Assembly: GCA_022827345.1 (NCBI GenBank)
Contig: JAJDTB010000065.1
Span: 50,024-114,023, forward strand
Origin: Gemmatimonadota bacterium
GTDB lineage: Bacteria; Gemmatimonadota; Gemmatimonadetes; Longimicrobiales; Gaopeijiaceae
Reading direction: 5' to 3'
Length of the DNA stretch: 64,000 nucleotides
The stretch's first letter is position 1. The number at the start of each line of letters is the position of its first letter. The position numbers were made by a program, and so were the translations under genes. Below the pieces are notes generated by a model. The model searched no databases and was not told where the DNA came from. It saw nothing but the letters and a program-made list of their open reading frames with translations. This document shows positions 18,312-50,447 of this stretch, piece by piece.

Positions 18312-18350
18312 TGTAATGTAAACATGACAAAATGTAATGGCAACATTACA
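18312..18350. repeat. tandem double-palindrome element, copy A
   Basis: Two 18-bp imperfect palindromes, TGTAATGTAAACATGACA (18312-18329) and TGTAATGGCAACATTACA (18333-18350), are separated by AAA. Each fits TGT-N12-ACA. The second can fold as a perfect 7-bp stem with a GCAA loop. The AT-rich tract stands out sharply from the GC-rich surroundings and lies between the 3' ends of two convergent genes. Copies B and C at 40538 and 50409 have the same 18-3-18 layout. Confidence 0.8.
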
Positions 18351-18376
18351 TGAGCGATTTGCGTTTATCGGCGAAT

Positions 18377-18394
18377 ACGTTTTAGCTGAAACGT
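18377..18394. repeat. short inverted repeat in convergent intergenic region
   Basis: ACGTTT-TAGCTG-AAACGT forms a perfect 6-bp inverted repeat with a 6-nt loop, 27 bp after double-palindrome copy A and 26 bp before the amidohydrolase stop. It could be a weak terminator for the minus-strand gene or a protein site; no T tract follows it. Confidence 0.35.
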
Positions 18395-18419
18395 TGAGCG
18401 CTCACCAGCGAGCCAGGCT

Positions 18420-20105
18420 TCAGTTCCGGCTTGTGTGCCGCAGCAGCCTCCCCGGCCTGGCGTCCGTCAGCTCCCCGTCGTCGATGACGAGCGTGCCGTT
18501 GACGAAGAGATAATCCACGCCTTCCGATTGCAGGGTCGCGTCCGCGCCGAAGTCGGCGCGATCCCGCAGGCGCGCCGGGTCGAATACCACCAGATCAGCC
18601 GCCATCCCCGCCGCGACGATGCCGCGGTCCTCCATCCCCAAACGCACTGCGGCGAGCGATGTCATCCGGCGCACGGCCTCCTCCAGCGAGATCACACCGT
18701 CCTCCCGCACGTACTTGGCGATCACGCGCGGGAAGGCACCGAAGGCGCGGGGGTGGGTGCTCGACACGGAGGCCGGGTTCACCGGGGAGGCGTCGGTGTC
18801 GATCATGACGTACGGCGCGCGCAGGGCGGCCCACTTCTGCTCCTCGTTCATGCTGAGCGGGTTGACGCTGACGCCGCCCGCCTGCACGAGGTCGAAGAAG
18901 GCGTTCCAGGGGTCGGTGCCGAGGACCTCCGCCGCTTCGGCGACGGAGCGGTTGACGACGCCCGGGTCGACGGTGCTCGGCGCCGAGACGATCAGCACGT
19001 TGTTCCAGTCCATGCCGACGTGCTGGTACCAGTTCTCCCACTCGGAATCGGTCTCGACCTCTTCGCGCAGCCGGGTCCGCAGGTCGGGGTCGCCGAGGGT
19101 GGCGAGGAAGGCGCCGGTGCCGCGGGCGTAGTGGCGCGGGTGCAGGAACGAGCCGAGGCCGATGCCGTTGCGGATGTACGGGTAGATGTCGGCCGTCACG
19201 TCCATGCCGGCGGTGCGGGCGGAGTCGATGAGCGCGAGGGCCTCGTCCATGAGGGGCCAGTTGCGCTGGCCGGCCGCTTTCAGGTGGTAGATGTGGACGG
19301 GGACGCCAGCCCCCTCGCCGATGGTGAGGGCCTCGCGGATGGCTTCGAGGACCGCGTAGCTCTCGTTCCTCATGTGCGTGAAGTAGACGCCGCCGTACTC
19401 GCCGGCCACCGCGCTGAGGGCGATCAGCTCGTCCGTGGATGCGTAGATCGCGGGCGGATAGATCAGGGAGGTGGACACGCCGACCGCGCCGTCCTCCATC
19501 CCTTCCCTGACGAGCGACTTCATTTCTTCGAGCTGCTCGGGCGTGGGCGCGACGTCCTCGTTGCCGAGAACCACGCGCCGCACCTGGGTCAGGCCGACGT
19601 CGTGGACCACGTTGATGGGGATGCCGTAGCGCTCCATGATCGCGAAGTACTCGGAGTAGCGGCGCCAGCGCAGCGTGTCGCCGTCGATCACGGGCGGATT
19701 GGCGAGCGTGGCCTCGCTCTGGGGCGCGGCCGAACTTCCCTCGCCGGAGAGGTAGGTCGTGATGCCCTGGCGCAGCTTGCTCTCGGCGCTCGGGGGATCG
19801 GTGATGAGGACGAGGCTGGCCTGGCCCATCATGTCGACGAACCCGGGGGCGACGACGCGGCCGGCGGCGTCGATGGTGCGCGCGGCCTCGCTACCGGAGA
19901 GGTCGCCGACGGCGGCGATGCGGTCGCCGCGGAGGCCGATGTCGGCGTCGGTGGATGGGCCGCCGGTGCCGTCGACCACGCGGGCGCCGGTGATGAGGAC
20001 GTCGAAGGGGCCGGGGTCGGGTGGGGGAGGGGCGTCGGTGCAGGCGGCGAGGAGCGCGGCTGTGAGGAGGGCGGCGGTCGTCGTGGTGCGGTGGTCGGCG
20101 GTCAT
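18420..20105 (-). CDS. exported N-acyl-D-amino-acid deacylase-like amidohydrolase (lipoprotein)
   Basis: The ATG at 20105 has GGAG about 8 bp upstream and gives 561 residues with a lipoprotein signal ending LLAAC, so it should be anchored outside the cytoplasm. The body is an amidohydrolase: FDVLITGARVVDGTGGP near the N-terminus, later HMRNES and HLKAAG, and a C-terminal composite-barrel ending AGMAADLVVFDPARLRD. The D-aminoacylase family normally has an HxH metal motif after PGFVD; here the sequence is PGFVDMMGQAS, with no histidines. It therefore belongs to a divergent subgroup that may use a single metal or have altered chemistry. The substrate is unknown; N-acyl-D-amino acids or dipeptides are the family precedent. 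It is divergent from the sigma factor operon. Confidence 0.82.
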   Translation of the reverse strand: MTADHRTTTTAALLTAALLAACTDAPPPPDPGPFDVLITGARVVDGTGGPSTDADIGLRGDRIAAVGDLSGSEAARTIDAAGRVVAPGFVDMMGQASLVLITDPPSAESKLRQGITTYLSGEGSSAAPQSEATLANPPVIDGDTLRWRRYSEYFAIMERYGIPINVVHDVGLTQVRRVVLGNEDVAPTPEQLEEMKSLVREGMEDGAVGVSTSLIYPPAIYASTDELIALSAVAGEYGGVYFTHMRNESYAVLEAIREALTIGEGAGVPVHIYHLKAAGQRNWPLMDEALALIDSARTAGMDVTADIYPYIRNGIGLGSFLHPRHYARGTGAFLATLGDPDLRTRLREEVETDSEWENWYQHVGMDWNNVLIVSAPSTVDPGVVNRSVAEAAEVLGTDPWNAFFDLVQAGGVSVNPLSMNEEQKWAALRAPYVMIDTDASPVNPASVSSTHPRAFGAFPRVIAKYVREDGVISLEEAVRRMTSLAAVRLGMEDRGIVAAGMAADLVVFDPARLRDRADFGADATLQSEGVDYLFVNGTLVIDDGELTDARPGRLLRHTSRN

Positions 20106-20191
20106 GCGGTGATCTCCGGGTCGGGGATGACCTGCGGCTCGGCGGCGGTCTGCAGACATCGTATCGGACCCGAGCCGGGGGAGCCATAGTA

Positions 20192-20216
20192 GAAACAGGC
20201 AGCTCGCGCGCTTGTC
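20192..20216 (+). promoter_or_regulatory. candidate ECF-sigma autoregulatory promoter
   Basis: GAAAC (20192-20196), 16 bp, then TGTC (20213-20216). This resembles the general GAAC-N16/17-GTC form of ECF promoters and lies about 68 bp before the chosen sigma factor start. It would let the sigma factor drive its own operon. Only one site is visible, so it is weak evidence. Confidence 0.35.
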
Positions 20217-20283
20217 ATGCAGAAGCACCGAGATGATCGGAGCGGGACTTCGATCCAACCCTCACCGTCCACGGATCGGGCGA

Positions 20284-20874
20284 ATGCGAAACGTGCAACT
20301 CATGCGCGACACCGACGACGCACCGGCCAACGCCGTAACCCCCGAGATTGAGCCCCTGATGCTCTCCATCAAGGGCGGGTCGTCGACGGCGCTCGGCCAG
20401 CTGATGGACCTCTGCTGGCCCGAGCTCGTGCGGTACGCCGCACGGCAACTGCAGGACGTGGAGATCGCCCGCGATGTCGTGCAGGAAGCGTTCATCCAGG
20501 TATGGGAGCGCCGGCGTTCGTGGCGCCCCCGCGGATCGGCCCGCGCCTACCTGTACCGGATCGTCAGGCACCTCGTGATCGACGAGAAGCGGAAGTGGAG
20601 TGTGCGGCGGCGGTGGCTGGAGCGGCAGGAGACCGCGGACGCGCCGCACCCCGCGACCCCGGCCGAAGTGCTGGACGCGAAGATGCTGGCCGATGCCTTC
20701 GAAGCCGCCGTGGCCTCGCTCCCCGAGCGGCGCCGCGAGGTCTTCGAGCTGGTCTTCCAGCGGGGCCTCACGCACGCCGAAGCGGCCGCTGTGATGGGAA
20801 TCTCGTTGCCCACCGTCGCAAACCAGATGAGCGCCGCGCTGCGAGCCGTGCGGCAGGCAGTGAAGGAGGACTAG
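20284..20874 (+). CDS. ECF-type RNA polymerase sigma factor
   Basis: About 196 residues from the ATG at 20284. Region 2 is recognisable as LVRYAARQLQDVEIARDVVQEAFIQVWERR followed by RAYLYRIVRHLVIDEKRK. Region 4 is LPERRREVFELVFQRGLTHAEAAAVMGISLPTVANQMSAALRAVRQ, a helix-turn-helix that reads the -35 element. It directs RNA polymerase to a small regulon, probably including this operon. Upstream in-frame starts fall in the candidate promoter, so 20284 (or ATG 20302) is preferred. The stop is immediately followed by the anti-sigma ATG, and the arrangement matches FecI-type surface-signalling systems. Confidence 0.9.
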   Translation: MRNVQLMRDTDDAPANAVTPEIEPLMLSIKGGSSTALGQLMDLCWPELVRYAARQLQDVEIARDVVQEAFIQVWERRRSWRPRGSARAYLYRIVRHLVIDEKRKWSVRRRWLERQETADAPHPATPAEVLDAKMLADAFEAAVASLPERRREVFELVFQRGLTHAEAAAVMGISLPTVANQMSAALRAVRQAVKED

Positions 20875-21909
20875 ATGGACGAGTTGCTGTTGCGGCATCT
20901 GCGCAGACAGACGAGCAGGGAAGAGGACGCGTCGGTGACCGCCTGGCTGGAGGACTCGCCGGATCGCGAGCGCGAGTTGGCGGAGCTGCGGCGCCTGGTC
21001 GAAGCGGGGCATGTGGCGGATCGCCGGATCGACCCCGGTGACGCGCCGAGCCCCGAGGATGTGATCTGGCGAGCGGAGGCGCGGGTGGCGCGGTTGCAGG
21101 AGCGTGGCGTGGCGCGTCTCGGGCGGAGGCTCCGGCCAAGGCGTCCCTGGCTCCGTTGGAGCGATTCACTGGCGGCTGCCGCGGTGGTCGTGGTGTTCCT
21201 GGGGGTGTGGCAGGCGGTCGTCCGGAGCGGCAACAGCGCCGCCCCGTCCATCCACCAGTTCGCCTCGACCGATCCCGGCGAGACCGAGATCGTGCGTCTG
21301 GCCGACGGAAGCGTGATCCGCCTCGGACCCGACAGCTGGCTTGCCGCCTCCTGGCGCACGGAAATCCCGGAAGGAGCGGCCCGAGAGGTGGCGTTCCACG
21401 GAGAAGCCTTCTTCGCCGTTGCAGGCGACCCGGCCCGGCCGTTCCGCATCGCTACCGACGCCGGCACGGCCGAGGTGCTCGGGACGCGCTTCCACCTGGC
21501 CGCCGACGAGGAAGATCTCTCTGTCGCGGTCGTCGAGGGGCGGGTCGCGCTCGCCGGACCTGATCATGAGGTGCACGTCGGGGCGGGGCAGGCGACGAGG
21601 CTGCTGCGCGGCCAGCCGCAGGATGTCGTGGCCGCGCCCCCGATCGAGACCGTCGCCGCCTGGCTGGACGACTTCCTGATCTTTCACGACACACCCCTGA
21701 GTGTCGCGATGCAAGAGGTCGGGGCGCGCTACGGCACCGATGTGATGGTGGACGACCCGGCGCTCCTCGACCGTACCCTGACCATGTGGTTCGAGTCGAA
21801 GTCGCTCGAGGAAGTGATGACGGTGGTGTGCAGCGTGGTCGACGCCCGGTGCAGCGTTGGCGGAGGCGTTGTGAGGGTGCACGGCACCGATTCCGGAGAC
21901 GACTCATGA
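20875..21909 (+). CDS. FecR-type transmembrane anti-sigma factor
   Basis: 344 residues, with AAGGAGG just before the start, within the end of the sigma gene. A short cytosolic N-terminal region of charged helices is followed by one membrane span (about residues 98-112, SLAAAAVVVVFLGVWQAVV) and a periplasmic FecR domain: TEIVRLADGSVIRLGPDSWL, VAFHGEAFFAV and PFRIATDAGTAEVLGTRFHLAA. The C-terminal part (TPLSVAMQEVGARYGTDVMV) resembles the DUF4974/secretin-like segment typical of Bacteroidota-style FecR proteins. It would hold the sigma factor inactive until the TonB receptor at 21906 signals substrate binding. It overlaps that receptor by 4 bp. Confidence 0.9.
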   Translation: MDELLLRHLRRQTSREEDASVTAWLEDSPDRERELAELRRLVEAGHVADRRIDPGDAPSPEDVIWRAEARVARLQERGVARLGRRLRPRRPWLRWSDSLAAAAVVVVFLGVWQAVVRSGNSAAPSIHQFASTDPGETEIVRLADGSVIRLGPDSWLAASWRTEIPEGAAREVAFHGEAFFAVAGDPARPFRIATDAGTAEVLGTRFHLAADEEDLSVAVVEGRVALAGPDHEVHVGAGQATRLLRGQPQDVVAAPPIETVAAWLDDFLIFHDTPLSVAMQEVGARYGTDVMVDDPALLDRTLTMWFESKSLEEVMTVVCSVVDARCSVGGGVVRVHGTDSGDDS

Positions 21910-24686
21910 GCGCCGTGAGGATGGTTCGGCCGATGTCGCGGCACGAGCGGATGACCGACGGACGAGCCTCGGCGCCACGGAGGCACATGGCGGCCCTGGT
22001 CGCATTCGCCTCTGCTCTCGGCACGTTTCTGACAGGGGTCGCCGCACCGCAACTCGCCGCCCAGGACGAGCAGGTGCTGGCCGCGCTCCGGGGCGAAACG
22101 GGCGTCGATCCCGCCCCGGGAACCCTCCTCGCGACCGTCTCCCGCTTTTCCACCGACCAGGCGCTCCTCGCGGATGCCCTCGTGCAGCTCGCCGAGCGGT
22201 CGCAGGTACAGATTGCCTTCAGCCCCAGTCTGCTGCCAGGGAACCTGCGCGTGAATTGCGACTGCGCGATGCTGAACCTGGCCCGCGCGCTGGACCACCT
22301 TCTCGCCGACACCGACCTGGGATATGTCGAGCTGGGCTCCCAGGTCGTCGTCGTACCGAAGGCGGGCCGCGAGTTCCGCGATCTCGAGGGGGTGCTGCGC
22401 GGACGCGTGCGGTCGGAGGTGGCGGTGCCGCTCGAGGATGCGACCGTGCAGGCGCTGCTGGTTGCGGATACCACCCGGCGCAGCGTCACCGGCACCGACC
22501 GACTCGGCTACTTCACCTTCCACCACCTTGTGCCGGGTTCCTATGTCCTGAGCGTCACTCACATCGGGTATGCACCCCACGACCAGCGTGTGGATGTGGC
22601 CCCGGGATCCGACCTCCAGATAGAAGTGAATCTGGCCGCAAAGGCAGTCGAGCTGGCAGGTGTCGAGGCCGAAGGCCGCCGCAGTCGGCAACGCGAGCGA
22701 TTCGAGAGTTCGGCCGGCGAAACGGTCCAGGAGTTCAATCGCCGTGAACTCAAGACCATTCCGGGCGTCGCCGAGCCCGATCCGATCAAGAGCGTGGAGG
22801 TACTGCCCGGGGTCATCAGGGTGTCCGACTTCCACGCCGCCTTCAACGTCCGTGGGGGGTCGGCCGACCAGAACCTGGTTCTTCTGGACGGTGTGCCGAT
22901 CTTCAACCCCTTTCACGCTCTGGGGCTGTTCTCCGTCTTCAACGGCGACATGGTTCAGCGGGCCGAGCTTCACTCCGGCGGCTTCCCGGCCGAGTACGGC
23001 GGGCGGACATCGTCGGTCCTGCTGGTCGAATCCGATCTGGGAGACGGAGAGCTGGGGGTGGACGCGGGGGTCAGTCTCATTGCGAGCCGGGCAGCTGTGA
23101 ACGGTGGCCTGCCGGACGGTGTGGAGGAACGTTTCGGGCTCGCCAGTGCCCGTTGGAGGGTCTCCGGCCGCCGCAGCTACCTGGACGTGCTCACCCGGCC
23201 CTTCCTGGAAGCTCCGTTCCCCTATCGACTCAATGACCTGCAGGCCGGCTTCGAGGCGTGGACCAGAAAGGGAGACCGGGTGCGGATTACCGGCTACTCC
23301 GGCCGCGACGTCGTCAACGTCAGGGATCTCGCGATCCTCGACGGCGATGTTGATGCCGGTCGGGATGGCGACCGGTTTCGCAATGTCGCGTGGCGGTGGG
23401 GGAACGACGCTGTTGGAAGCACCTGGACTCGCCCCCTCGAGGGTGGCGGGGCGGTGGATCTGCACGGATCGGTGTCACGCTTCGACGGAGAATTCGAATT
23501 CGACGAATTCGGAGACATTCGCATCATGACCCGGATCAGCCGTGCCTCGATAGGGGGTGACCTGGAGCAGAGACCGGGGCCGCGCCTCAGTTGGAAGTCC
23601 GGCTGGGTACTCGCCCGGGCGGTTCACGACAACGTGATCGAGGGCGGGGTGCCGCAGGCATTCCCTACGGGACGAGAGAGCGGGGTCGAGTCGGCCGTCT
23701 ATTCACAGGTCCGGTGGACGCCCAGCGCGGGTTGGTTGCTGGAGGGCGGATTGCGGCTTGATGGCTGGCGTCCAGGCGATGGGAATACCGCCACCGTGTT
23801 TTCACCCCGATTCGCTCTCAAGCGGTTTCTGGGCAACAGCAACTGGGCTGTGCGGGCAGCAGCGGGACGCTACTCCCAGTTCATTCAATCCGTGCGGGAT
23901 GAAAAGCTGCCCGTCAGTCCGGACTGGTGGATGATCTCTGGGCGCGCGGCACCCACGGTCGTGTCGGAGCAGATCCAGGCTGGTCTCGAGGGGTTCGCGG
24001 GAAGGGACGACAGGTGGTTTGTCAGTCTGGAGGGGTACTATCGCCGCTTCGACGGGCTGGCCGCGCAGGACTGGGCGGAAGATCCTGACGATCCTACCGA
24101 CGACCTGATGTCAGGCGTTGGACGCTCCTACGGCCTGGACCTGTTGATTCGAAGGGACGTGGGCCGGACCACGGGCTGGCTTTCCGTGTCGCTCCTCAAC
24201 GCCGCCCGCACCTTTCCCGACACCGGCTCGGGACTTCAGCCCGCGCCCGAGATCAGGTTCTCTCCGCCGTTCGACCGCCGTCTCGACATCGACCTCGTGG
24301 CTCGGCGCGACCTGCCCGGAGACATCGAGACCGGTCTGCGCTGGAACTTCGGCACCGGTTTGCCATACACCCGTCCCCTCGGCGTCTTCTCGATCTATCG
24401 CACCCGGATGATTGATCTCCTGGTCGATCCGACCTATGCCAGAGCCACGGTACTGGGTCTCAGGAACGCCCAGCGCTACCCCGTGCGACACCGGCTGGAT
24501 GTCACGTTTCGGCGGACCTGGGAGCGGGGATGGGGTAGGATCACGCCGTACCTCAACGTGATCAACCTGTACAACCGAAAGAACGTCCTGTTCTACTCGT
24601 TCGACTACAGACCGGAGATACCGGTTCGCAATGGGGTATCGATGCTCCCGATTCTGCCCACGATTGGAGTGGAGGTGTCGTTCTGA
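21906..24686 (+). CDS. TonB-dependent transducer/receptor with N-terminal STN and carboxypeptidase-like domains
   Basis: The start ATG overlaps the anti-sigma stop (ATGA) and gives 926 residues. After a signal peptide ending near AAPQLAAQ comes an STN domain (LLADALVQLAERSQVQIAFSPSLL ... ALDHLLADTDLGYVE). Next is a carboxypeptidase-regulatory-like beta-sandwich (VLRGRVRSE ... GYFTFHHLVPGSYVLSVTHIGY), then the plug (SVEVLPGV, FNVRGGSADQNLVLLDGVPIFNP) and a ~650-residue beta-barrel ending IGVEVSF. The STN domain is the hallmark of transducers that signal to a FecR-like anti-sigma factor, which fits the two upstream genes. The ligand (siderophore, sugar, peptide) cannot be inferred. It overlaps the next lipoprotein gene by 1 bp. 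Confidence 0.92.
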   Translation: MSAVRMVRPMSRHERMTDGRASAPRRHMAALVAFASALGTFLTGVAAPQLAAQDEQVLAALRGETGVDPAPGTLLATVSRFSTDQALLADALVQLAERSQVQIAFSPSLLPGNLRVNCDCAMLNLARALDHLLADTDLGYVELGSQVVVVPKAGREFRDLEGVLRGRVRSEVAVPLEDATVQALLVADTTRRSVTGTDRLGYFTFHHLVPGSYVLSVTHIGYAPHDQRVDVAPGSDLQIEVNLAAKAVELAGVEAEGRRSRQRERFESSAGETVQEFNRRELKTIPGVAEPDPIKSVEVLPGVIRVSDFHAAFNVRGGSADQNLVLLDGVPIFNPFHALGLFSVFNGDMVQRAELHSGGFPAEYGGRTSSVLLVESDLGDGELGVDAGVSLIASRAAVNGGLPDGVEERFGLASARWRVSGRRSYLDVLTRPFLEAPFPYRLNDLQAGFEAWTRKGDRVRITGYSGRDVVNVRDLAILDGDVDAGRDGDRFRNVAWRWGNDAVGSTWTRPLEGGGAVDLHGSVSRFDGEFEFDEFGDIRIMTRISRASIGGDLEQRPGPRLSWKSGWVLARAVHDNVIEGGVPQAFPTGRESGVESAVYSQVRWTPSAGWLLEGGLRLDGWRPGDGNTATVFSPRFALKRFLGNSNWAVRAAAGRYSQFIQSVRDEKLPVSPDWWMISGRAAPTVVSEQIQAGLEGFAGRDDRWFVSLEGYYRRFDGLAAQDWAEDPDDPTDDLMSGVGRSYGLDLLIRRDVGRTTGWLSVSLLNAARTFPDTGSGLQPAPEIRFSPPFDRRLDIDLVARRDLPGDIETGLRWNFGTGLPYTRPLGVFSIYRTRMIDLLVDPTYARATVLGLRNAQRYPVRHRLDVTFRRTWERGWGRITPYLNVINLYNRKNVLFYSFDYRPEIPVRNGVSMLPILPTIGVEVSF

Positions 24687-38584: not shown

Positions 38585-39447
38585 TGGAAGCCGCCCTGAA
38601 GCTCCGGGCTCGAGGACGGGCGCGATGCTCGCGGCCTGCCGATATCCACGTCCTCAAGTTCGGCTCCTCCGTCCTGGCCTGTCCGGAGGACTATCCCGTT
38701 GTTGCCGCGGTGATCGGCCGCGAGGTCGCCCGCGGACGCAAGGTGGTCGCCGTCGTCTCGGCCATGGGCGACACGACCGACGCGCTTCTTGCGGCAGCCC
38801 GCTCGGTGGCGGCAGCGCCGAACGACCGGCTGATGGGGGCGCTGCTCGCGACCGGTGAGGAGGCGTCGGTGGCGCTGCTCACCCTGGCATTGGCCGCGAA
38901 GGGAGTCCCGGCGGCGGGGGTGAACGCATGGCGCCTTCCCGTGCGAACGCGGGGATCCCTGCGCGACGCCGACCCCGTCGCCGTCGACACGGGACAGATC
39001 CGCGCGATGTTCGCCAGTCACGACGTGGTCATCTTCCCCGGTTTTATCGGAGTGGACGTGACGGGCGTTCCTTCTCTACTCGGGCGGGGCGGATCGGACC
39101 TCACCGCACTCTTTCTGGCTGACGCTCTGGGGGCCGAGGCGGTCCGTCTCGTAAAGGATGTGGACGGCATTTTCCCCTCGGACCCGCGCCGTCTCTCGGG
39201 GGCGGTTTCGCACCGCCACGGAACACCCGGTTCGCTGCACCGGGGAGGCGCCGGCGAGCGTCCCACGGCCGGTCCGGAGCCCTACTCCACGCTGACCTGG
39301 TCGCAGGCGCAGGAGATCGGCGGTGCGGTCGTGCAGTCGAAGGCGATCGATTTCGCGGAGCGCAGGGGGCTCGCCTTCCGCGTCACCGGGCTGACGGGGA
39401 AGGGGACGAACGTCGGGGAGCGAGGCCCGTGGCAGACGGCGCGCTGA
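38584..39447 (+). CDS. aspartokinase-like amino-acid kinase lacking ACT domains
   Basis: 287 residues from an ATG overlapping the previous stop by 1 bp. The amino-acid kinase fold is evident: VLKFGSSVLACPE (phosphate loop, normally KFGGTS), VVAVVSAMGDTTDALL, LLATGEEASVALLTLALAAKGVPA, GFIGVDVTGVPSLLGRGGSDLTALFLADALGAEAVRLVKDVDGIF and a C-terminal VQSKAIDFAERRGLAFRVTG. Aspartokinases are usually about 400 residues or longer with C-terminal ACT domains that bind lysine or threonine; here the protein stops after the catalytic domain. If active, it would be insensitive to ACT-type feedback and controlled only by the riboswitch. It supplies aspartyl phosphate to the next gene product. Confidence 0.83.
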   Translation: MEAALKLRARGRARCSRPADIHVLKFGSSVLACPEDYPVVAAVIGREVARGRKVVAVVSAMGDTTDALLAAARSVAAAPNDRLMGALLATGEEASVALLTLALAAKGVPAAGVNAWRLPVRTRGSLRDADPVAVDTGQIRAMFASHDVVIFPGFIGVDVTGVPSLLGRGGSDLTALFLADALGAEAVRLVKDVDGIFPSDPRRLSGAVSHRHGTPGSLHRGGAGERPTAGPEPYSTLTWSQAQEIGGAVVQSKAIDFAERRGLAFRVTGLTGKGTNVGERGPWQTAR

Positions 39448-40574
39448 CCGGCCCGCAGCCCGGTGGTCCCGCTTCGGCACGCGACAGGATACCGGCAGCC
39501 GTCCTCGGCGCCACCGGGATCGTGGGACAGCGCCTGGTGCGGATGCTCGAGGGACACCCCCTCTTCCGTCTCGCGGAGGTCACCGGCTCCGGGCGCCGTG
39601 CCGGCCGGTTGTATGCGGAGACGACCCCATGGGCTCTGGGCGGCGATCCCCCGGCCGCCGCAGCGCGGCTGAAACTCGTGGCACCCGGCGAGCCGCTGCG
39701 GAGCCGGCTGGTGCTCTCGGCCCTGCCGTCCGGCGTAGCGGCGGAGACCGAACCGGCCCTTGCGCGGGCCGGGCATGTCGTGTGCACCAACGCTTCAGCC
39801 CACCGGATGCGCCCGGATACGCCGCTCGTCATCCCCGAGGTCAACGCCGAGGCCATCAGCGGGATCATGGCCCAGCCGTGGTCGGCCTCCGGGGGGGCGC
39901 TCGTCGCCAATCCCAACTGCGTCGTGGTGGGGCTGGCCATGGCGCTCGCCCCGGTCGAGAGGGCATTCGGCATCGAATCGGCGACGGTGGTGACGCTTCA
40001 GGCGCTTTCCGGGGCCGGGCTCGGCGGCCTCGGCGCGGTCGAAGTCGCCGGCAACGTCATCCCGTCGATCCGCGGGGAGGAGGAGAAGATCGGTCCCGAG
40101 CTCAACAAGATCCTGGAGGCGAACATCGATGTTGCCGTAGCGGTGAATCGCGTCCCGGTCCTCGACGGCCACACCGCCCACGTCTTCTGCAGGCTGCGCG
40201 ACCCGGTCACGCATGCGGAAGCGGCCGAGGTGCTGCGCGGCTTTCGGCCGCCCCTGGAGGCGGGCGCGCTGCCGTCCCTTCCGGCCCGGCCCCTCGTCGT
40301 GCGCGGCGAACCCGACCGCCCCCAGCCCCGCCTGGACGCGGGCGCCGAGGCGGGCATGGCCGTGACCGTCGGCCGGATCCGCCCGGCTCCTCCTCCGCAC
40401 CACCTGGCTCTGGCGGTGGTCGTCCACAACGGAATACGGGGCGCGGCCGGGGCCTGCCTCGCCAACGCCGAGCTGTGCCTGGCCCACCTGGGTCCGAAGG
40501 CCCTGACACCGGGTGGCGAACCGAGCTACGATCGAAATGTAATACAAACATTACAAAATGTAATGTCGATGTGA
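39429..40574 (+). CDS. asd: aspartate-semialdehyde dehydrogenase
   Basis: 381 residues from a GTG at 39429 with GGGGAG upstream, overlapping the kinase by 19 bp. The N-terminal NADP fold is AAVLGATGIVGQRLVRML. The catalytic cysteine is Cys164 in ANPNCVVVG, and the substrate-binding region GLGGLGAVEVAGNVIPSIRGEEEKIG and the late VVVHNGIRGAAGACL are typical. It reduces aspartyl phosphate to aspartate semialdehyde with NADPH. Together with the kinase it feeds homoserine synthesis; homoserine dehydrogenase is not in this window. The last ~13 residues are encoded by double-palindrome copy B, so the normal stop may have been replaced by the inserted element. Confidence 0.88.
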   Translation: MADGALTGPQPGGPASARDRIPAAVLGATGIVGQRLVRMLEGHPLFRLAEVTGSGRRAGRLYAETTPWALGGDPPAAAARLKLVAPGEPLRSRLVLSALPSGVAAETEPALARAGHVVCTNASAHRMRPDTPLVIPEVNAEAISGIMAQPWSASGGALVANPNCVVVGLAMALAPVERAFGIESATVVTLQALSGAGLGGLGAVEVAGNVIPSIRGEEEKIGPELNKILEANIDVAVAVNRVPVLDGHTAHVFCRLRDPVTHAEAAEVLRGFRPPLEAGALPSLPARPLVVRGEPDRPQPRLDAGAEAGMAVTVGRIRPAPPPHHLALAVVVHNGIRGAAGACLANAELCLAHLGPKALTPGGEPSYDRNVIQTLQNVMSM

Positions 40575-40576
40575 CA
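40538..40576. repeat. tandem double-palindrome element, copy B
   Basis: TGTAATACAAACATTACA (40538-40555), AAA, TGTAATGTCGATGTGACA (40559-40576). It has the same 18-3-18 layout as copies A and C. It covers the end of the asd reading frame, whose TGA stop is at 40572-40574, and precedes a plus-strand membrane-protein gene by 170 bp. The region 40577-40746 has no other recognised feature. Confidence 0.8.
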
Positions 40577-43743: not shown

Positions 43744-43750
43744 CCGGCCC

Positions 43751-45136
43751 CTACTTCACCACCAGGATCCGCTGCGTCACCGGGTACAGCCACTCCACGC
43801 CGCGTTCGGTGACCACCGCATCGTCCTCGAGCGGGATGCGCACCTTGGCGTTGCCCCATTCGGGGTTGGCGGTGTAGGCGAACAGTTCCACCGAGATCAG
43901 GGTGCCGGGGCGCAGTTCGTAGGTCTGGCGCGTCGGGTTGAAGAACGCGAGTGACGGGCCGATGCCGTGCCCCCAGTTGCCGACCGAGTGGGGCCCGATG
44001 ACGACATCGGTGACGTCCGGGTCGTCGGTGGGCTGGTTGAACTCGATGCGGTTGAAGCCGGCGGCCTCGATCGCCGCCCAGGTGGCGTCGACGGCCTGCT
44101 GGGCGGTGGGCGCGGGCTTGATCGACGCCTTCATGACGTCGCGCACCTGTTTGGCGCGCTCGAATGCGTGCCGGATCCCCGGTGGCGGCTCGGTCTCGCC
44201 CTCGCGCAGCACGTAGGCCACGCGCTTCATGTCGGTGTAGAAGTCGAGGAAGCCGACGCCCCAGTCGATCATGAGCAGGTCGCCGCGCTGGATGATGCGG
44301 TCCGAAGACGTGGCCTCGATGCCGGTCGGGCCGGTGATGTAGACCGACGGCATGTCGAAGGAGGAGTCGAGGCCGCGCGCGAGGAGCTGGTCCCACATCC
44401 ACCAGGCTACGTCCTCGAGCGCGGTGACGCCGGGGGTGATGACCTCGTTGGAGAAGGCGCGCTCGGCGATCTCGCGGCTCATCTCGCCGGCCTCGCCGAA
44501 GGCGGCGATTTCGGTGGCCACCCGGGTCGCGCGGAAGTCCGAGACGAAGCGCTCGGCCGAGACGAGGCGGTCGGCGTAGGGCGCGCCGAGTTCTTCGCGC
44601 AAGTGCAGGTAGGAGGTGTGTGAGAGGCCGTCGGCGCCGCCGATCGATGCGGCCATGTTGACGCCGATGCGCTCGGGATCGCGCTCGGCCACGTAGTCGT
44701 GCAGCGAGGCGGCGCTGCCGAAGTGGTCGTAGACGCCGCACTGCTCGAGCATGTAGCCGCCGACGCCCAGCGCGGCCCGTTCGGTGCGCTCGCCGCGGTC
44801 GGTGAAGACGTAGTACGCCCAGTCGCCGACGTAGCCGCGGCCGAGCGCATCCCACATGGGGTCGAGGAGGCCTTCGCGCATGACGACGATCCACATGTCG
44901 AGGTCGTTGTCGTGCATCGCGCCGGGCAGCACGAGGTCGAACTTCTCGGCGCGGATCTGGCACATGCGCTCCCAGCGCCGCCGGGCCTCCTGGCCGTCGA
45001 GGGGTGCGGGCCATGAAGCGGCCAGGGCCGCCGCGATGGCGATCGCGAACCTTCCTCCGCTGCCGTGGCCACGAGGTGCCGCCTGGCGTGACCACCGCCC
45101 CTCGCGGCTCCGGCCGCCCTTCTTCACCCCCATCAT
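43751..45136 (-). CDS. exported M24 family (Xaa-Pro aminopeptidase-like) metallopeptidase
   Basis: 461 residues from the ATG at 45136, which overlaps the upstream M14 gene's stop by 4 bp. A basic N-terminus and hydrophobic stretch FAIAIAAALAASWPAPLDGQ look like a signal peptide. The creatinase-like N-terminal domain is followed by the pita-bread fold with metal ligands in MIDWGVGFLDFYTDMKR, WGHGIGPS, SVELFAYT and RIPLEDDAVVTERGVEWL. These enzymes cleave the N-terminal residue before proline, or act on related amides. The coupling with an M14 carboxypeptidase suggests joint breakdown of extracytoplasmic peptides. Confidence 0.88.
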   Translation of the reverse strand: MMGVKKGGRSREGRWSRQAAPRGHGSGGRFAIAIAAALAASWPAPLDGQEARRRWERMCQIRAEKFDLVLPGAMHDNDLDMWIVVMREGLLDPMWDALGRGYVGDWAYYVFTDRGERTERAALGVGGYMLEQCGVYDHFGSAASLHDYVAERDPERIGVNMAASIGGADGLSHTSYLHLREELGAPYADRLVSAERFVSDFRATRVATEIAAFGEAGEMSREIAERAFSNEVITPGVTALEDVAWWMWDQLLARGLDSSFDMPSVYITGPTGIEATSSDRIIQRGDLLMIDWGVGFLDFYTDMKRVAYVLREGETEPPPGIRHAFERAKQVRDVMKASIKPAPTAQQAVDATWAAIEAAGFNRIEFNQPTDDPDVTDVVIGPHSVGNWGHGIGPSLAFFNPTRQTYELRPGTLISVELFAYTANPEWGNAKVRIPLEDDAVVTERGVEWLYPVTQRILVVK

Positions 45137-46905
45137 CGTACCATCACCCAGCCGGACCGGACGGTGCCACCCTTGTCCGATTCGGCCATCACCCGCACGG
45201 CGCGCTCGCCGCCCGTCGCGCGCACCACCCACGTCACCGTGTGGGACGCTTCAGTCGCGGCCTCAAGAAACGGGTTAGACCCCGCGAGGTGCGGGATCAC
45301 CGTGCGGCTGCGGCCCTCCACGATCTCGAGCCCGGGATGCGTCAGGGTCACGGCCGGCGCGCGGACCACCTGGCGGTCGATGCTGCCGTCGGGACGCTCG
45401 CGCCCCACCGCGCCCCGATCGGTCACGCTCGTGGGCAGGAACCCCGTGTTGGTCACCGTCACGGCGACCCGGAAGGTCCCGTCGCCCAGCGCCGTCACCG
45501 CCGGGTCGCTCACCTCGATCAGCGGGCCCTGCTCGGCCAGGTACAGGATCCAGTGCAGCTGCTGCTCCGTCTCGGCCTCCAGAAACTCCGGCGGCGGGTT
45601 CTGTCCCCAGAACTTCGAGTGCCAGCCCCCGATCTCGACGGCGCCCAGCTGCGGGTGGTCATGCGGCGTCCAGTCCGAGAAGTAGCGGCCGCCCAGTTCC
45701 TCGTCGTTGAAACGGTGCTGTTCGGCCTCGCTGATCTCGCCGTCGCCGTCGAAATCGGTCACCCACGCCTCGGGGCCGGGCGAGAACTCCGGGACCCATC
45801 CGACTATGCCGTGGTCCCAATAGCCCCACGAGATGAGCGTCCCGTAGCGGTGCTCGGTGGGGTGCGTGGCGCTCGGGACCACCGGGCGGCCGGTCGAACG
45901 CGTGTACTCCTCGCCGAGGTGGATGATCAGCGACAGGTCGATCTGCGGGAACAGCGACGGGGCGGACGCCGACGGGAGCCGGTAGACGAAGCCGCCCGAG
46001 GTGTGCCCGTGCACGATCCCCGTGATGTTGCGGTGCGCGTTGATGAACTCCGCCGCGGCGCGCGTCTCGGGCTCGGACAGCGGGTAGTCCCCGGCGCCGG
46101 TCTGCAGGTGCACGCGCTCCCAGTTGCGCGGGAAGTTGCGGTTCATGTCGAGGCCGCCGAGGCCGTCCTCGTTGATCGTGCCGTCGCCGTCGTTGTCGAC
46201 GCCCTCGCGCATGGTCGAGAAACGGAGGCCGGCGCGCTGCATCTCTGGGTCGCGCAGCATGATGCGGTCGTCGTCCGGATCGGCCACCCAGATGCCGTCC
46301 GGGTCGGGGATGCGCATCTGCGTGATCCAGCCGTTGCCGTCGAGGTCCTCGGGGGGGTCCTCGTCGGCGGTGCCGTCCTCGTCGTCGTCGAAGGGGTGGG
46401 GGGTGCTGCGCAGGAACTGATCGTCGATGAGCGCGAGGTCGGAGCCGTCGGGGTTGAACTTGGGGCGCACGTAGAAGGCGCGGCTGTCGAGGAGGGCGGT
46501 GACGCGGGGGTCGTTGCCGTAGCCGTTCAGGAGGTGGCCAATCACGTGCGTCGCCACCGCCGAGCCGGTGAGCTCGCCGGCGTGGATGCCGCCGTCGACG
46601 TAAAGGGCGGGCTTGTCGGCGGCGGGGCCGGTCGCCTCGTTGGTGATGGTGATCAGCATGAGGGGCTGGCCATGGAAGCTCTCGCCGACCTGGTCGAGCT
46701 CGGTCAGCTCCGGGTACAGGGCGTGAAACTCGCGCAGGATCTGGTTGGTCTCGGCAGCCGTGTAGAAGCGGTTCCAGTCGACGTCGCCGGCGGGCGAGAC
46801 GAGGCTGGAGGACTGGGCGGCGGCGGGGGCGGGAGCGCCGGCGAAGGCTGCGGCCGCGAGTCCGGTCAGGAGCAGGCCGGCGGGGTGTCGGGTGCGTCGG
46901 TGCAT
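45133..46905 (-). CDS. secreted M14 zinc carboxypeptidase with Ca-binding-like loops
   Basis: 590 residues from the ATG at 46905 with GAGAGG upstream and a signal peptide ending APAAAQ. The zinc site is His108 and Glu111 (GGIHAGE), with the third ligand in VHGHTSGG (His299 or 301). The family's NPDG and LDMNRNFPRNW blocks are present. Unusual are four acidic loops resembling EF-hand or dockerin calcium sites: residues 173-182, 187-193, 237-248 (DNDGDGTINEDG) and 384-395 (DFDGDGEISEAE). A beta-sandwich follows the catalytic domain (residues ~475-590). It removes C-terminal residues from peptides or peptidoglycan stems. It is in an operon with M24 downstream and the cytochrome upstream. Confidence 0.88.
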   Translation of the reverse strand: MHRRTRHPAGLLLTGLAAAAFAGAPAPAAAQSSSLVSPAGDVDWNRFYTAAETNQILREFHALYPELTELDQVGESFHGQPLMLITITNEATGPAADKPALYVDGGIHAGELTGSAVATHVIGHLLNGYGNDPRVTALLDSRAFYVRPKFNPDGSDLALIDDQFLRSTPHPFDDDEDGTADEDPPEDLDGNGWITQMRIPDPDGIWVADPDDDRIMLRDPEMQRAGLRFSTMREGVDNDGDGTINEDGLGGLDMNRNFPRNWERVHLQTGAGDYPLSEPETRAAAEFINAHRNITGIVHGHTSGGFVYRLPSASAPSLFPQIDLSLIIHLGEEYTRSTGRPVVPSATHPTEHRYGTLISWGYWDHGIVGWVPEFSPGPEAWVTDFDGDGEISEAEQHRFNDEELGGRYFSDWTPHDHPQLGAVEIGGWHSKFWGQNPPPEFLEAETEQQLHWILYLAEQGPLIEVSDPAVTALGDGTFRVAVTVTNTGFLPTSVTDRGAVGRERPDGSIDRQVVRAPAVTLTHPGLEIVEGRSRTVIPHLAGSNPFLEAATEASHTVTWVVRATGGERAVRVMAESDKGGTVRSGWVMVR

Positions 46906-46913
46906 CGTTCCTC

Positions 46914-47477
46914 TCAGGAGGGTGTCCAGATGATCCAGTAGTCGTCGATCGAGTCGTCGTCGGTGGCCAGCTCGCTCGGCCCGGGCGGCAGGCCGTTGAG
47001 CTGGAAGATATAGGTCAGGGCGTCGGTCACCTGCTCGCGGGTCAGGCTGCCCGGGTTGCCGTGGGGCATCCGCTCGTAGATCCAGTACCAGAGGCGGAAG
47101 ACCGAGGCTTCCTCCCATCGCTCCAGGAACGCGGGCTGGGTCCAGTCGGCGGGCTCGTGGCATTCGGTGCAGATCTGCTCGTAGACCTGGCGTCCGCGCG
47201 CCGCCTGCGCCTCGGTGTAGATCCCGTGGGTGGTGTTGGGCTCGTCGGCCCTGGATCGGGGTGCGGCCGCAGCCTCGGGTGCGGGGGCAGCCTCGGGTTC
47301 GGCGGCGGGTTCGGGTGCAGACGTCGGGGCAGGGGATCCGGCCTGGCAGGTGGAGGAAACAAGCGCGACCGCGACGGATGCTGCCGCGAACCCGGCCCGA
47401 GAGCGGGTGGCCGCCTCAGACCAGCGCGAAGGAAAACGAAGGAAGCTGATCGGCTTCGGCCTCGTACGTGGTTCCAA
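46914..47477 (-). CDS. exported single-haem cytochrome c-like protein
   Basis: One CxxCH haem site (ICTECHEPADW) sits in a cytochrome-c-like context: YTEAQAARGRQVYEQ before it and LTREQVTDALTYIFQLNGLPPG after, with MPHGNPG as a probable methionine ligand. The N-terminus has a hydrophobic run ending VSSTC, a likely lipobox, then a Pro/Ala/Glu-rich linker. No ATG fits well; a TTG at 47477 has GGAGG six bases upstream and gives 187 residues. The alternative ATG at 47546 would overlap the upstream hydratase by 131 bp. It may shuttle electrons in the periplasm. Confidence 0.75.
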   Translation of the reverse strand: MEPRTRPKPISFLRFPSRWSEAATRSRAGFAAASVAVALVSSTCQAGSPAPTSAPEPAAEPEAAPAPEAAAAPRSRADEPNTTHGIYTEAQAARGRQVYEQICTECHEPADWTQPAFLERWEEASVFRLWYWIYERMPHGNPGSLTREQVTDALTYIFQLNGLPPGPSELATDDDSIDDYWIIWTPS

Positions 47478-48279
47478 TCGTCGCCTCCACAAGGGGGGTG
47501 AGCGTTCCGGTCGAGACAAGGTAACCTGCGCCACCATCGCCGCCACGCTTCGAGCCCCCGGTCACGCCGTAGCCGGCGGTACGCTCCGCAAGCGGTCCGT
47601 ACAGCTCCGCGAGCACATTGGCCGGCCCATCGAGGACCGCCCGCCCCTTGCCCGCGGCCAGGCGCTCGCCACTCGCCGAGAGGGAGACCACGACATCGCG
47701 CAGGGCCTCGACCGCGTCCGCCGACACGGGCTGAACGCGCGGGCCGATCACCAACCCGGCGTGCAGCCCGAAATCCGCGACCGCGTCGGCGGGGTGCAGC
47801 CGCCAGCCCGCGTAGTGGCAGTCCACCAGCTCTGCGCCCAGCGCGACCCAGTCCGGCATCGGGTGCCGCCCCGCCGTCGTGGCGGGCCCGTCGAAACCGA
47901 ATACCACCTCAACCTCGATCATGAGCGCGGCGCGGCGCCCGGCGGGGACAGGCGGCGGCTCCCGGTTCCGCGCCCCTGTGGAGCCGGTACCCACATCGAA
48001 CACCGTCTCGTCGTAAACCGGCCCGACGATAGGCTGGTCAAGTCCCCACTTCGACCAGATCTCCCGGTTGGTAAACCCGACCTTCCACCCCTTCCAGCGC
48101 CAGCCCTGCCGGATGCGACGCCGGGCGATCAGAGCGCCGATGTGGTAGGCTTCATCGAGCGTCAATCCGTCGGTGATCGAAGGTAGCTCGACCAGGACTC
48201 CCTTCGCCTGGGCGTGAAGGAGGGAGTCCGCCAGAGCGTAGTGGCCAGTCAGTGGCGCGGTATCGCGTAGCCGGGTCAT
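47416..48279 (-). CDS. 2-keto-4-pentenoate hydratase / fumarylacetoacetate hydrolase-family protein
   Basis: 287 residues. It follows the 2-oxopent-4-enoate hydratase pattern: LDEAYHIGALIARRRIRQGWRWKGWKVGFTN near residues 40-70, ALMIEVEVVFGF with acidic metal ligands near 125, LGAELVDCHYAGW near 150, and DFGLHAGLVIGP. Hydratases of this family add water to 2-hydroxy-dienoates in aromatic meta-cleavage pathways and need Mg2+ or Mn2+. No other aromatic-degradation gene is visible, so the pathway is uncertain. Its 3' end overlaps the proposed start of the cytochrome gene. Confidence 0.8.
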   Translation of the reverse strand: MTRLRDTAPLTGHYALADSLLHAQAKGVLVELPSITDGLTLDEAYHIGALIARRRIRQGWRWKGWKVGFTNREIWSKWGLDQPIVGPVYDETVFDVGTGSTGARNREPPPVPAGRRAALMIEVEVVFGFDGPATTAGRHPMPDWVALGAELVDCHYAGWRLHPADAVADFGLHAGLVIGPRVQPVSADAVEALRDVVVSLSASGERLAAGKGRAVLDGPANVLAELYGPLAERTAGYGVTGGSKRGGDGGAGYLVSTGTLTPLVEATIGTTYEAEADQLPSFSFALV

Positions 48280-48331
48280 TGGTGAAAGTTGAGCGCCATG
48301 GCACTCGTCGACAACAACAGAGAGGATCGGA

Positions 48332-48706
48332 ATGGACGCGTTTCTGGAGCTGTTTTCCTTCGACGGACGGGCGAACCGGGCCCGCTACTTCTGGCATGTG
48401 GTACTGGACGACCTGGTGGTCGTCACCATGGCCGGAATGACGGTGTTCATGGGGATGTTCACCTCGCTGGTTACCATTCCCCTCTTCGGGGTCGGGCTGG
48501 CGGCTGCCTGGGCGGCCCTGGCGATCACGGTGAAGCGGCTTCACGACCTCGGTCGGCCGGGGTGGCACGTGTTGCTCTTCATGATCCCTCTGTACAACAT
48601 CTATCTGGCCATTGTTCTCTTCGTGGTCGAAGGTACGGTCGGCGACAACCAGTACGGACCGGATCCGCTGGGCGGGCCCTACGGGACGCATCGCCAACTG
48701 ACCTGA
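48332..48706 (+). CDS. DUF805 small membrane protein
   Basis: 124 residues with three or four hydrophobic segments. The family signature is clear: an N-terminal LELFSFDGRANRARYFWHVVL, an internal ITVKRLHDLGRPGWHVLLFMIPLYNIYLAIVLF, and a C-terminal GTVGDNQYGPDPLG. DUF805 proteins (E. coli YhaH/YhaI-like) are inner-membrane proteins of unknown function. It lies directly upstream of the valine tRNA and is probably a separate unit. Confidence 0.85.
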   Translation: MDAFLELFSFDGRANRARYFWHVVLDDLVVVTMAGMTVFMGMFTSLVTIPLFGVGLAAAWAALAITVKRLHDLGRPGWHVLLFMIPLYNIYLAIVLFVVEGTVGDNQYGPDPLGGPYGTHRQLT

Positions 48707-48711
48707 CCTCG

Positions 48712-48786
48712 GGGCGCTTAGCTCAGTTGGTTCAGAGCGCCTGCCTTACAAGCAGGAGGTCGCTGGTTCGAATCCAGCAGCGCCCA
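48712..48786 (+). tRNA. tRNA-Val (anticodon UAC)
   Basis: The acceptor stem GGGCGCT (48712-48718) pairs with AGCGCCC (48779-48785), and the discriminator A is at 48786. The D arm contains AGCTCAGTTGGTTCAGAGC. The anticodon stem CCTGC/GCAGG encloses the loop CTTACAA, giving anticodon TAC. The T arm is GCTGG-TTCGAAT-CCAGC. The CCA end is not encoded (ATTG follows), so it must be added after transcription. It reads valine codons GUA and, with wobble modification, others. Confidence 0.95.
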
Positions 48787-48867
48787 TTGTGACCGGAACT
48801 TCCAGAGCCTTGGCCGGGTTCTATATTCAGTATAAGCCACATTCCCTACTCTAGCAGGTGACTTCCG

Positions 48868-50337
48868 ATGTCAAGTGCCGTCCGCGCCCGGTTGTCCCTA
48901 CTGGTCAGCGTGCTTTTGCTCGCCTCCTGTGGCGACGACGACGAGTCTCCCGTCGCGCCGCCGCCTCCGCCACCCCCACGCCCCCAGGAACCCAACCAGC
49001 TGCCGACCGCCGGATTCACCATCGACGTGGACCGCGGACAAGCCCCGCTGGACGTCACCTTCGACGCGTCCCCGTCCAGCGACCCGGACGGCAGCCTCGT
49101 CTCCTACAGCTGGGATTTCGGAGACGGCGGCACCGCGGCCGGTGCGCAAGTCACGCACACCTACGACGGCGCCGGTGTGTTCGAGGTCAAGTTGACGGTC
49201 AGGGACGATCGGGACGGAGAGGCGTCGGCAACCGGCGACGTGACCGTGGCGAGCGCCGCCGGAAGCGGCCCCAACGTCATTCAGGGAACGGTCTGGTTCG
49301 ACCGCAACCAGGACGAAGCCATCGACGAGGGCGAGCGTGTCCTGGAGGGCTTCAAGGTCTTTCTCGACCTCGACGCCGATGGCGCCTACGACAACGGCGA
49401 ACCGCTCACCTTCACCGCGGCCGACGGCACCTACGAGTTCGCCGGCCTCGACGCAGGCCGCAACTACCCGGTCTCCCAGATCCTCGACTTCGGCTGGAGC
49501 AGCACCTTTGCCGGACCCGCGGCGCAAGGGGCGGGTGCGCTTCCACCGGACGTCGCAGCGATCGTCAACGGGGATGACGCGGACATCGAGGACTTCCCCT
49601 TCCAGGCCGCGCTGATGGTCCCCGGCACCGATTTCCAGTTCTGCGGGGGCACTCTGATCAACAGCCGCTACCTGCTGACTGCGGCGCACTGTGTGTTCGG
49701 GGCTCCGGCGAACGAGATCGAGGTTCTGCTCGGCAGCGCCGACCTGACTTCAGGGGGTGAGCGGGTGAATGTACAGGCCGTTCGCTCCCACCCCGAGTTC
49801 GGCCAGACCATCGACTATGATGTAGCCCTCTTGCGCCTGGAGGGATCGCATCTGCGTCCGCGGGTTTACCTGCAGAAGCCGGACCAGCCCGAGTATTCGA
49901 TGCCCGGCGACACGTCCACGGCGATCGGGTGGGGGCAGATAGGCGAGGGCACGGATGGCATGGATACCGATATCCTGCAACGGACCAACCTGCCCATAAT
50001 CACAAACGAGCGGTGCGGCCTGGTGGCCGGATTCCTGGCTGGCAGCATTACGGACCGGGTGATCTGCGCCGGAGAGGAGCGGCTTGGGCGCGGTGTCTGT
50101 TTCGGCGACAGCGGCGGTCCGCTGCTGGTCCCCTACGAGGAGTCATGGATCGAGATCGGTGTTTCCAGCTTCCTGGTCAACAGGGACCAGTGCGGCAACA
50201 TCCCCACCGCATTCGCGCGGGTCTCCGAACTGTACAACTACATCGTCGCCGTGGCGCGGATCGAGGATTCGCTGGCGCACGAGGTCGGCTGGAGCGAGGG
50301 GACGACGGCGCGGGTGGATTTCGGCAACTTCCACTAA
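48868..50337 (+). CDS. surface lipoprotein with PKD domain, SdrD-B-like domain and trypsin-fold (S1) protease
   Basis: 489 residues, with the start at ATG 48868 and a lipobox LLLASC followed by a proline-rich spacer. Residues ~45-130 form a PKD domain (SYSWDFGDGGTAAGA, HTYDGAGVFEVKLTV). Residues ~140-215 resemble an SdrD B/Cna-like domain (GTVWFDRNQDEAIDEGE). The S1 protease has His274 (TAAHC), Asp318 (YDVALL) and Ser415 (GDSGGP). The position equivalent to chymotrypsin 189 is Gly, not Asp, so trypsin-like preference is unlikely; small or aromatic P1 residues are more plausible. The propeptide cleavage site is not obvious: IVNGDDADIEDFPFQAAL begins the catalytic domain. Confidence 0.9.
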   Translation: MSSAVRARLSLLVSVLLLASCGDDDESPVAPPPPPPPRPQEPNQLPTAGFTIDVDRGQAPLDVTFDASPSSDPDGSLVSYSWDFGDGGTAAGAQVTHTYDGAGVFEVKLTVRDDRDGEASATGDVTVASAAGSGPNVIQGTVWFDRNQDEAIDEGERVLEGFKVFLDLDADGAYDNGEPLTFTAADGTYEFAGLDAGRNYPVSQILDFGWSSTFAGPAAQGAGALPPDVAAIVNGDDADIEDFPFQAALMVPGTDFQFCGGTLINSRYLLTAAHCVFGAPANEIEVLLGSADLTSGGERVNVQAVRSHPEFGQTIDYDVALLRLEGSHLRPRVYLQKPDQPEYSMPGDTSTAIGWGQIGEGTDGMDTDILQRTNLPIITNERCGLVAGFLAGSITDRVICAGEERLGRGVCFGDSGGPLLVPYEESWIEIGVSSFLVNRDQCGNIPTAFARVSELYNYIVAVARIEDSLAHEVGWSEGTTARVDFGNFH

Positions 50338-50408
50338 ACAGCGGATCCGAGTCGATCCCCGGCGCATCGGTGCCAGGGTGCCGGAAACGGCCCCTTCAAT
50401 CGTTAGTA

Positions 50409-50447
50409 TGTAATATTTACATTACATAATGTAAACTCGCCATTACA
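50409..50447. repeat. tandem double-palindrome element, copy C
   Basis: TGTAATATTTACATTACA (50409-50426), TAA, TGTAAACTCGCCATTACA (50430-50447). Layout 18-3-18 as in copies A and B. It sits in the 125-bp gap between convergent stop codons (S1 protease and creatininase). Confidence 0.8.

Follow-up and report, generated by a model that had tools for sequence, protein, structure and literature searches.

Proteins of several kinds bind palindromic sites dispersed over bacterial chromosomes. Passages of PMC4726725 give about 24-52 sites for SlmA and 70 for Noc, describe them as under-represented near the terminus and state that SlmA binds its site as a dimer of dimers; the abstract of PMC5519180 adds that SlmA also activates one operon in Vibrio cholerae. 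In our judgement SlmA, Noc and MatP resemble regulators or partition proteins that were recruited to organise the chromosome, and the act of recruitment is seldom visible. Another type of protein combines a helix-turn-helix (HTH) domain, HTH_3, with a periplasmic-binding-protein-like (PBP-like) domain, PBP_like, and is named "molybdate-binding protein/DNA-binding XRE family transcriptional regulator" by one source. Here we describe a 39-bp tandem double palindrome that occurs three times in a 64,000-nt stretch of DNA (the window) from a Gemmatimonadota bacterium. Its gene-end copies appear to behave as protein-bound DNA rather than as RNA hairpins, intrinsic terminators or clean insertions, and the dispersed sites are likely bound by a Cro/C1 HTH protein fused to a PBP-like domain and encoded at the head of modABC.

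The window is part of a genome of 4.79 Mb in 75 contigs, designated G000. Its three sites, with their scores in a position weight matrix (PWM), are:

18312..18350, no strand assigned: tandem palindrome of 39 bp, spacer AAA, between convergent permease and amidohydrolase genes; PWM score 67.1
40538..40576, no strand assigned: tandem palindrome of 39 bp, spacer AAA, over the last codons and the stop of asd; PWM score 57.7
50409..50447, no strand assigned: tandem palindrome of 39 bp, spacer TAA, between convergent trypsin/PKD and creatininase genes; PWM score 61.4

They deviate from TGTAATN6ATTACA-N3-TGTAATN6ATTACA by 1, 2 and 1 mismatches, respectively, and none of 100 dinucleotide shuffles of the window contained a match to the 39-bp pattern at up to 2 mismatches. 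A first-pass annotation of this DNA had reported the three sites with these spacers and a distance of 21 bp between palindrome centres, two of them between convergent genes and one over the end of asd; all three positions were confirmed, spacers and spacing are correct, and our gene calls agree with the placement. The genome-wide scan proposed there yielded 55 copies in G000 when up to 3 mismatches were allowed, against 0 in the reversed control.

Fifty copies from G000 were aligned to build a sequence-only model and the PWM. Searching both strands of G000 with the model gave at least 152 matches (150 of 380 candidates were scored). The stretches fetched around matches amount to 833 kb including the window, that is 17% of the genome, with 684 genes called by a codon-usage script. 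The PWM marks 95 places in them at a score of at least 12: 86 at 40 or more, 3 between 20 and 40 and 6 below 20, and because of this gap the tandem palindromes form a discrete class. Single palindromes matched 184 times in the same stretches, 170 of them inside the 86 pairs; the other 14 include two that form a pair across a 2-bp spacer (L037), the remainder being solitary, weak or offset hits. Information over the 39-bp site sums to about 59 bits, as measured on the selected sites themselves. Near some sites (L042, L045, L050, L090; L293:11268-11321) there is another repeat, about 54 bp long, with matches in the relative G009; that of L050 is at another place in that genome.

Although 90% of the fetched G000 sequence is coding, the 86 strong sites lie mostly between genes: 40 in tandem gaps, 27 in convergent and 8 in divergent ones, the remainder at a gene 3' end (3), at a called start (3), within a gene (2) or at a contig edge (3). 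At a threshold of 20, the 77 intergenic sites divide into 29 convergent, 40 tandem and 8 divergent, compared with 14.7, 36.9 and 25.4 expected from the available intergenic bases of the same stretches, themselves chosen for holding sites (P 2e-6); convergent gaps are thus enriched and divergent ones depleted. The median distance from site to gene 3' end is 23.5 bp (98 ends), and 12 of these ends reach 5 bases into the site, with the TAA of TGTAA serving as stop codon. Gene starts within 400 bp of sites (n=60) lie at a median of 65 bp, and in tandem gaps 30 of the 40 sites are closer to the end of the upstream gene (P 0.002). Other genomes of the genus, whose loci were mostly fetched for having sites, contributed 85 sequence-distinct sites with a similar distribution: 40 in tandem, 26 in convergent and 9 in divergent gaps, 4 at gene starts, 2 at gene ends, 1 inside a gene and 3 at edges.

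Forty site-adjacent proteins (35 taken from the 60 gene starts, 5 from the 98 gene ends) were assigned with Pfam (E up to 1e-8; two have no Pfam family). They unite in no common pathway, and a coherent regulon was rejected on this ground. Gyrase A, DNA polymerase III alpha, asd, murB and a dprA-type protein are among the neighbours, a molybdoenzyme is not found among the 40, and by raw count the families met more than once are beta-lactamase-type (3), amidohydrolase (3) and sortilin-type (2). Positions and neighbours together bear out the earlier description of dispersed gene-end sites without a promoter regulon.

The pattern is confined to one genus in a sample of 59 genomes, 23 of which belong to that genus (the own genome and 22 others) and 36 to other genera. 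The genus may be the sponge-associated Candidatus Palauibacter, a guess based on isolate names and on passages of PMC10469786. The strict pattern matches in 21 of the 22 other genus members (2-161 copies) and in 0 of the 36. Single palindromes at any spacing number 21-316 per genome in 22 genus members and 0 in the remaining one, G008; the 36 genomes of other genera contain 0-3, inside the range of reversed controls (0-5). The few-site genomes G001 and G017 have about 16-17 distinct places each (model, E up to 0.01), so that copy number in 22 of the 23 genomes runs from about fifteen to more than 150. The top strict count, 161 sites in 2.8 Mb, belongs to G010.

Several features distinguish the copies from RNA structures. 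Agreement between the paired halves of a palindrome, or between paired positions across the 39-bp dyad, is no higher than after shuffling, and the slightly negative pairing values fit a site that tolerates one weak half. Base pairing between site flanks was not found. Conservation is higher in the inner than in the outer half-sites at positions 6, 7 and 8 of the half-site and lower at position 4. Four of five sites fold well (z -3.5 to -4.4), the third window site reaching only -1.55; RNA structure is nevertheless rejected because the halves do not covary, good folding being usual for palindromes. T-tract hairpins resembling terminators were detected at 1 of 82 gene ends with a site versus 6 of 255 without (7 of 337 overall). 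An intrinsic bidirectional terminator, one of the functions first suggested for the repeat, is therefore discarded. A lineage variant of the operator occurs in G012 and G021, where TGTATACT is frequent as one outer half-site.

The candidate binder came from distant genomes. Scanning 84,980 species genomes with a related pattern gave 52 stretches, 32 from Gemmatimonadetes/Gemmatimonadota and 20 from other taxa. Seventeen of these 20, found by the DNA motif alone, encode a short Cro/C1 HTH protein (about 65-80 amino acids when inner starts are chosen), identified by all-against-all protein comparison and located downstream of the site in 17 of 17 loci (-18 to 656 bp by ends of open reading frames); such a gene was not found in L128, L145 and L158. 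When this HTH family was sought in the Gemmatimonadota loci, one gene was traced in G000:

L067 11408-12517 (within G000:C32), minus strand: regulator gene with HTH_3 and PBP_like domains (PF01381 and PF12727), followed by modA, modB and modC

Both domains exceed their cut-offs (51.2 and 147.9 bits), as do modA and modB in NCBIfam; modC is the best match, below its cut-off. A tandem palindrome lies 38 bp upstream of the regulator gene. The structural model of the protein is confident (pLDDT 89.5); its first 50 matches in the PDB comprise periplasmic-binding-type proteins, such as ModA, and LysR-type regulators or their effector domains, while PDB sequence matches of the HTH are to CylR2 and a PbsX-family regulator. 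A six-frame search of the whole genome with the regulator gave a single G000 match at E up to 0.001; no close paralog is therefore seen. Twenty-two of the 23 genus genomes have the gene, all 22 carry multiplied palindromes, and in 22 of 22 a tandem site precedes the gene (PWM 30.6-60.0, lowest in G010). G008 is without the regulator and has 0 sites, yet retains modA. The P value of this co-occurrence, 9e-12, ignores shared ancestry and is not used as support. That the sites were unlikely to be ordinary operators, as the first-pass annotation held, agrees with the gene-end copies; the copy in front of the Cro/C1 molybdate-type regulator gene had been missed, and because of it the motif looks like an operator by origin, later multiplied.

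Tandem TGTMAWG-N4-CWTKACA palindromes with a 21-bp period precede short Cro/C1 HTH genes in several phyla (L113, L115, L120, L129-L132, L136, L137, L139, L140, L144, L153, L154, L156, L157, L160) and are the predicted operator of regulators of this class. At L132:2784-2864 and L136:5832-5891, one a Verrucomicrobia and the other a WOR-3 locus, three consecutive palindromes follow the same period, which suggests that the arrangement can extend. L158:3069-3195 (Cystobacterineae), where the HTH gene was not found, has three tandem-palindrome matches 44 bp apart. Within the genus, the HTH of four few-site genomes (L232, L234, L235, L236) is 51-52% identical to that of G000, versus 67-69% for the PBP-like part; other members show little difference or a closer match in the HTH.

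Outside the genus, relatives of the regulator occur in G033, G034, G035 and G038 (183 to 368 bits); G023 has a partial one, and weaker matches elsewhere are limited to the HTH. In G033, which belongs to a different genus of the family, the relative has upstream of it two palindromes 22 bp apart, and in G023 one clear and one poor palindrome precede the partial one; none of these five genomes has more than 3 palindromes. The local operator may thus be older than the multiplication of copies. The regulator of G010 retains an intact HTH while 108 of 369 positions are missing; a single one of these lies before residue 225 and all others at or after it, in the PBP-like domain. Downstream of the shortened gene come modA and, as judged by eye, modB. 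With much of its ligand-binding lobe gone, the G010 protein suggests, though it does not prove, that DNA binding has an importance independent of molybdate sensing.

Individual sites are replaced rapidly. The G000 ortholog of a site-adjacent gene also has a site at 5 of 20 loci of G002 and 1 of 20 of G021; orthologs were sought in the fetched 17% of G000, which surrounds sites, and contig ends truncate some G002 loci. One G000 block, chosen for holding the regulator and many sites, has 12 of them, and the close relative G009 shares six. Two of the six non-shared sites keep one palindrome there, one keeps a few bases, two are gone in larger changes and one is unmapped; a clean insertion or empty site was not seen among them, which speaks against the mobile non-autonomous repeat once considered. 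The block has no sites private to G009, as its choice favoured, and all 5 block sites with an alignment spanning the place keep the motif in G009. Ten sites shared by two species (4 of them from loci fetched because G009 has a site) show changes in 5 of 200 high-, 15 of 110 middle- and 15 of 80 low-information cells (high versus low, P 1e-5). Contact letters would thus be held and spacers drift, a contrast that is partly built in.

We infer a collective, chromosome-wide role and an ancestral order of events. Two regulator dimers would sit one on each 18-bp palindrome, two helical turns apart on one face of the DNA. The ancestral site would have controlled the operon of the regulator itself and, in this genus, would have multiplied around the chromosome to its present copy numbers, the copies being placed after genes, where coding and promoters would be least disturbed. 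Collectively they may act as fixed anchor or boundary points for DNA organisation, with single positions replaceable. In our estimate the chances are even that the 39-bp sites are the operator of this regulator and that their gene-end copies serve a chromosome-wide role, not a regulon. The fuller account, that a metabolite regulator turned into a chromosome-wide DNA-organiser in one genus, its operator multiplied to more than 100 gene-end sites and its G010 version shedding the sensor half while keeping its grip on DNA, is more tentative, though a serious possibility. The data fit a protein with many interchangeable sites placed for least gene disturbance. Sites for a nucleoid or boundary protein, also named in the first-pass annotation, stay the best guess for function.

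The single-contig chromosome of G021 allows the placement to be examined as a whole. At least 78 sites, weak ones included (150 of 506 candidates scored), occupy 17 of 18 bins; MatP/matS-type confinement to the terminus was rejected on this distribution. The largest site gap has P 0.16 with a roughly placed terminus. Origin and terminus were placed by 20 skew samples and only roughly, because visual inspection of the few genes at the contig start revealed no dnaA.

A number of observations weigh against the proposed role. G021 shows no regular spacing (coefficient of variation of gaps 1.11 versus 0.97 in random sets) and no clustering or clear bias towards the roughly placed origin or terminus, and therefore nothing positive marks a chromosome-organising function. 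Half of the block sites are absent from G009, as would also be expected of near-neutral relics, and the constraint on shared sites is partly built in because sharing was judged by the motif. Binding of the regulator to the sites is itself a prediction, and its own site is often weaker than the dispersed copies. G008 is the sole contrast within the genus and about 94% complete, so its regulator gene may simply be missing from the assembly; given the common ancestry of the 22 genomes, the co-occurrence may reflect a single gain with no more than one loss, and another genus-specific protein could fit the same presence profile. Upstream of the regulator relatives of G035 and G038 a search found no palindrome, and in G034 the contig ends at that region. 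By single palindromes, G020 (316), G011 (216), G014 (188) and G000 (182) all rank above G010 (179).

Roadblock termination is the main rival to a chromosome-organising role. The same regulator, bound at gene ends, would halt read-through by RNA polymerase, in both directions between convergent genes; DNA-bound repressors are able to end bacterial transcription, as a passage of PMC10310618 has it. The sites hug stop codons or even supply them, favour convergent over divergent gaps and, in tandem gaps, the end of the upstream gene, and intrinsic-terminator-like sequences are scarce here. Gene ends are, however, also the least harmful place for a large AT-rich site, most genes have none (86 sites versus 684 genes even in stretches picked around sites), site positions turn over fast, and terminator-like sequences are alike at ends with and without a site. 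We regard a roadblock as possible but doubtful. If the copies were instead decoys that titrate an autoregulated repressor and so set the threshold of the molybdate operon, the single full-length regulator match in G000, the site before its gene and the many dispersed sites of at least equal strength would be accounted for. G010, with the top strict count, is however devoid of much of the ligand-binding lobe, and more than 100 strong decoys for one operon would be a costly design, which makes decoys unlikely.

A different, unseen protein of the same specificity might also bind the dispersed sites, given that other HTH proteins of this type stand behind nearly the same motif in other phyla and that 17% of the own genome was examined base by base. 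The six-frame search, which covered all of G000, and the joint absence of regulator and sites from G008, where modA is kept, make this quite improbable. Least plausible, and in our opinion very unlikely, is that the copies are a functionless short repeat, mobile or copied. Such a repeat would suit the high copy number with its wide differences between species, the fast turnover of positions and the difficulty of evolving a 39-bp site of about 59 bits from nothing, but contact letters are apparently held while spacer letters vary at shared sites (in part by construction), and none of the six non-shared block sites is a clean insertion. The preferred reading remains a multiplied operator with a collective role.

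Two known regulators with similar sites were rejected as binders. The TGT-N12-ACA form of the palindromes is that of PpsR/CrtJ operators, as noted in the first-pass annotation. Fis-type HTH_8 includes the TyrR, CrtJ and NtrC types. This family (PF02954) is present in 59 of 59 genomes, including the siteless G008 and the other genera, and PpsR/CrtJ was dropped by this family-level test, under which a single member is possible. Tandem ARG boxes of ArgR consist of two 18-bp palindromes with a 3-bp spacer, and their half-site differs from the one here. ArgR has the same geometry, but G010, with its 161 sites, contains 0 ArgR matches; the other 22 genus genomes do have one.

The genes around the window sites are:

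16512..18257, plus strand: permease gene (PF00860), ending 54 bp before the first site
18420..20105, minus strand: amidohydrolase gene (PF07969), 3' end 69 bp after the first site
39429..40574, plus strand: asd, semialdehyde dehydrogenase (PF01118, PF02774), stop inside the second site
from 40747, same direction as asd: TMEM164-family gene, the next gene after asd
48910..50337, plus strand: trypsin/PKD protein gene, ending 71 bp before the third site
50463..51326, minus strand: creatininase-family gene, 3' end 15 bp after the third site

Elsewhere in the window, positions 4580-14803 of the minus strand form one open frame of about 3400 codons.

No paper on such dispersed gene-end sites was found among the open-licence papers listed by literature searches, so their absence from the literature as a whole is unproven. 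In PMC12565409, on palindromes of XRE regulators, the part of the main text covered contains neither TTTACA, TGTAA or TTGACA nor the word "tandem". The genus makes several stages of a possible recruitment comparable: a local operator that is probably ancestral, species poor and species rich in sites, one without protein and sites (G008) and one with the sensor half much reduced (G010). It also leads to a sequence-level operator prediction for the short Cro/C1 regulators of several phyla.

Compared with known systems, G000 and its genus resemble SlmA and Noc in having tens of dispersed palindromic sites for a predicted DNA-binding protein. SlmA and Noc belong to the TetR and ParB families, whereas here the site is a 39-bp double palindrome and no terminus depletion was found with roughly placed origin and terminus; membership among nucleoid-occlusion factors is not claimed. 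The Reb1-type roadblock is similar in that a protein bound at gene ends could stop RNA polymerase; it is known from yeast. CylR2 and the short Cro/C1 regulators share the HTH domain, and short relatives in other phyla lie behind the same tandem palindrome, but they have apparently single local operators and no PBP-like domain. The closest likeness is to HTH_3 + PBP_like molybdate-type regulators, which have the same domains, likewise head modABC and are preceded by a palindromic site at their own gene. By domains and modABC linkage the protein belongs to this class, with binding of molybdate and of the operator predicted. It differs from them in the about fifteen to more than 150 extra gene-end copies of its site within the genus and in the loss, in one species, of much of the ligand-binding lobe.

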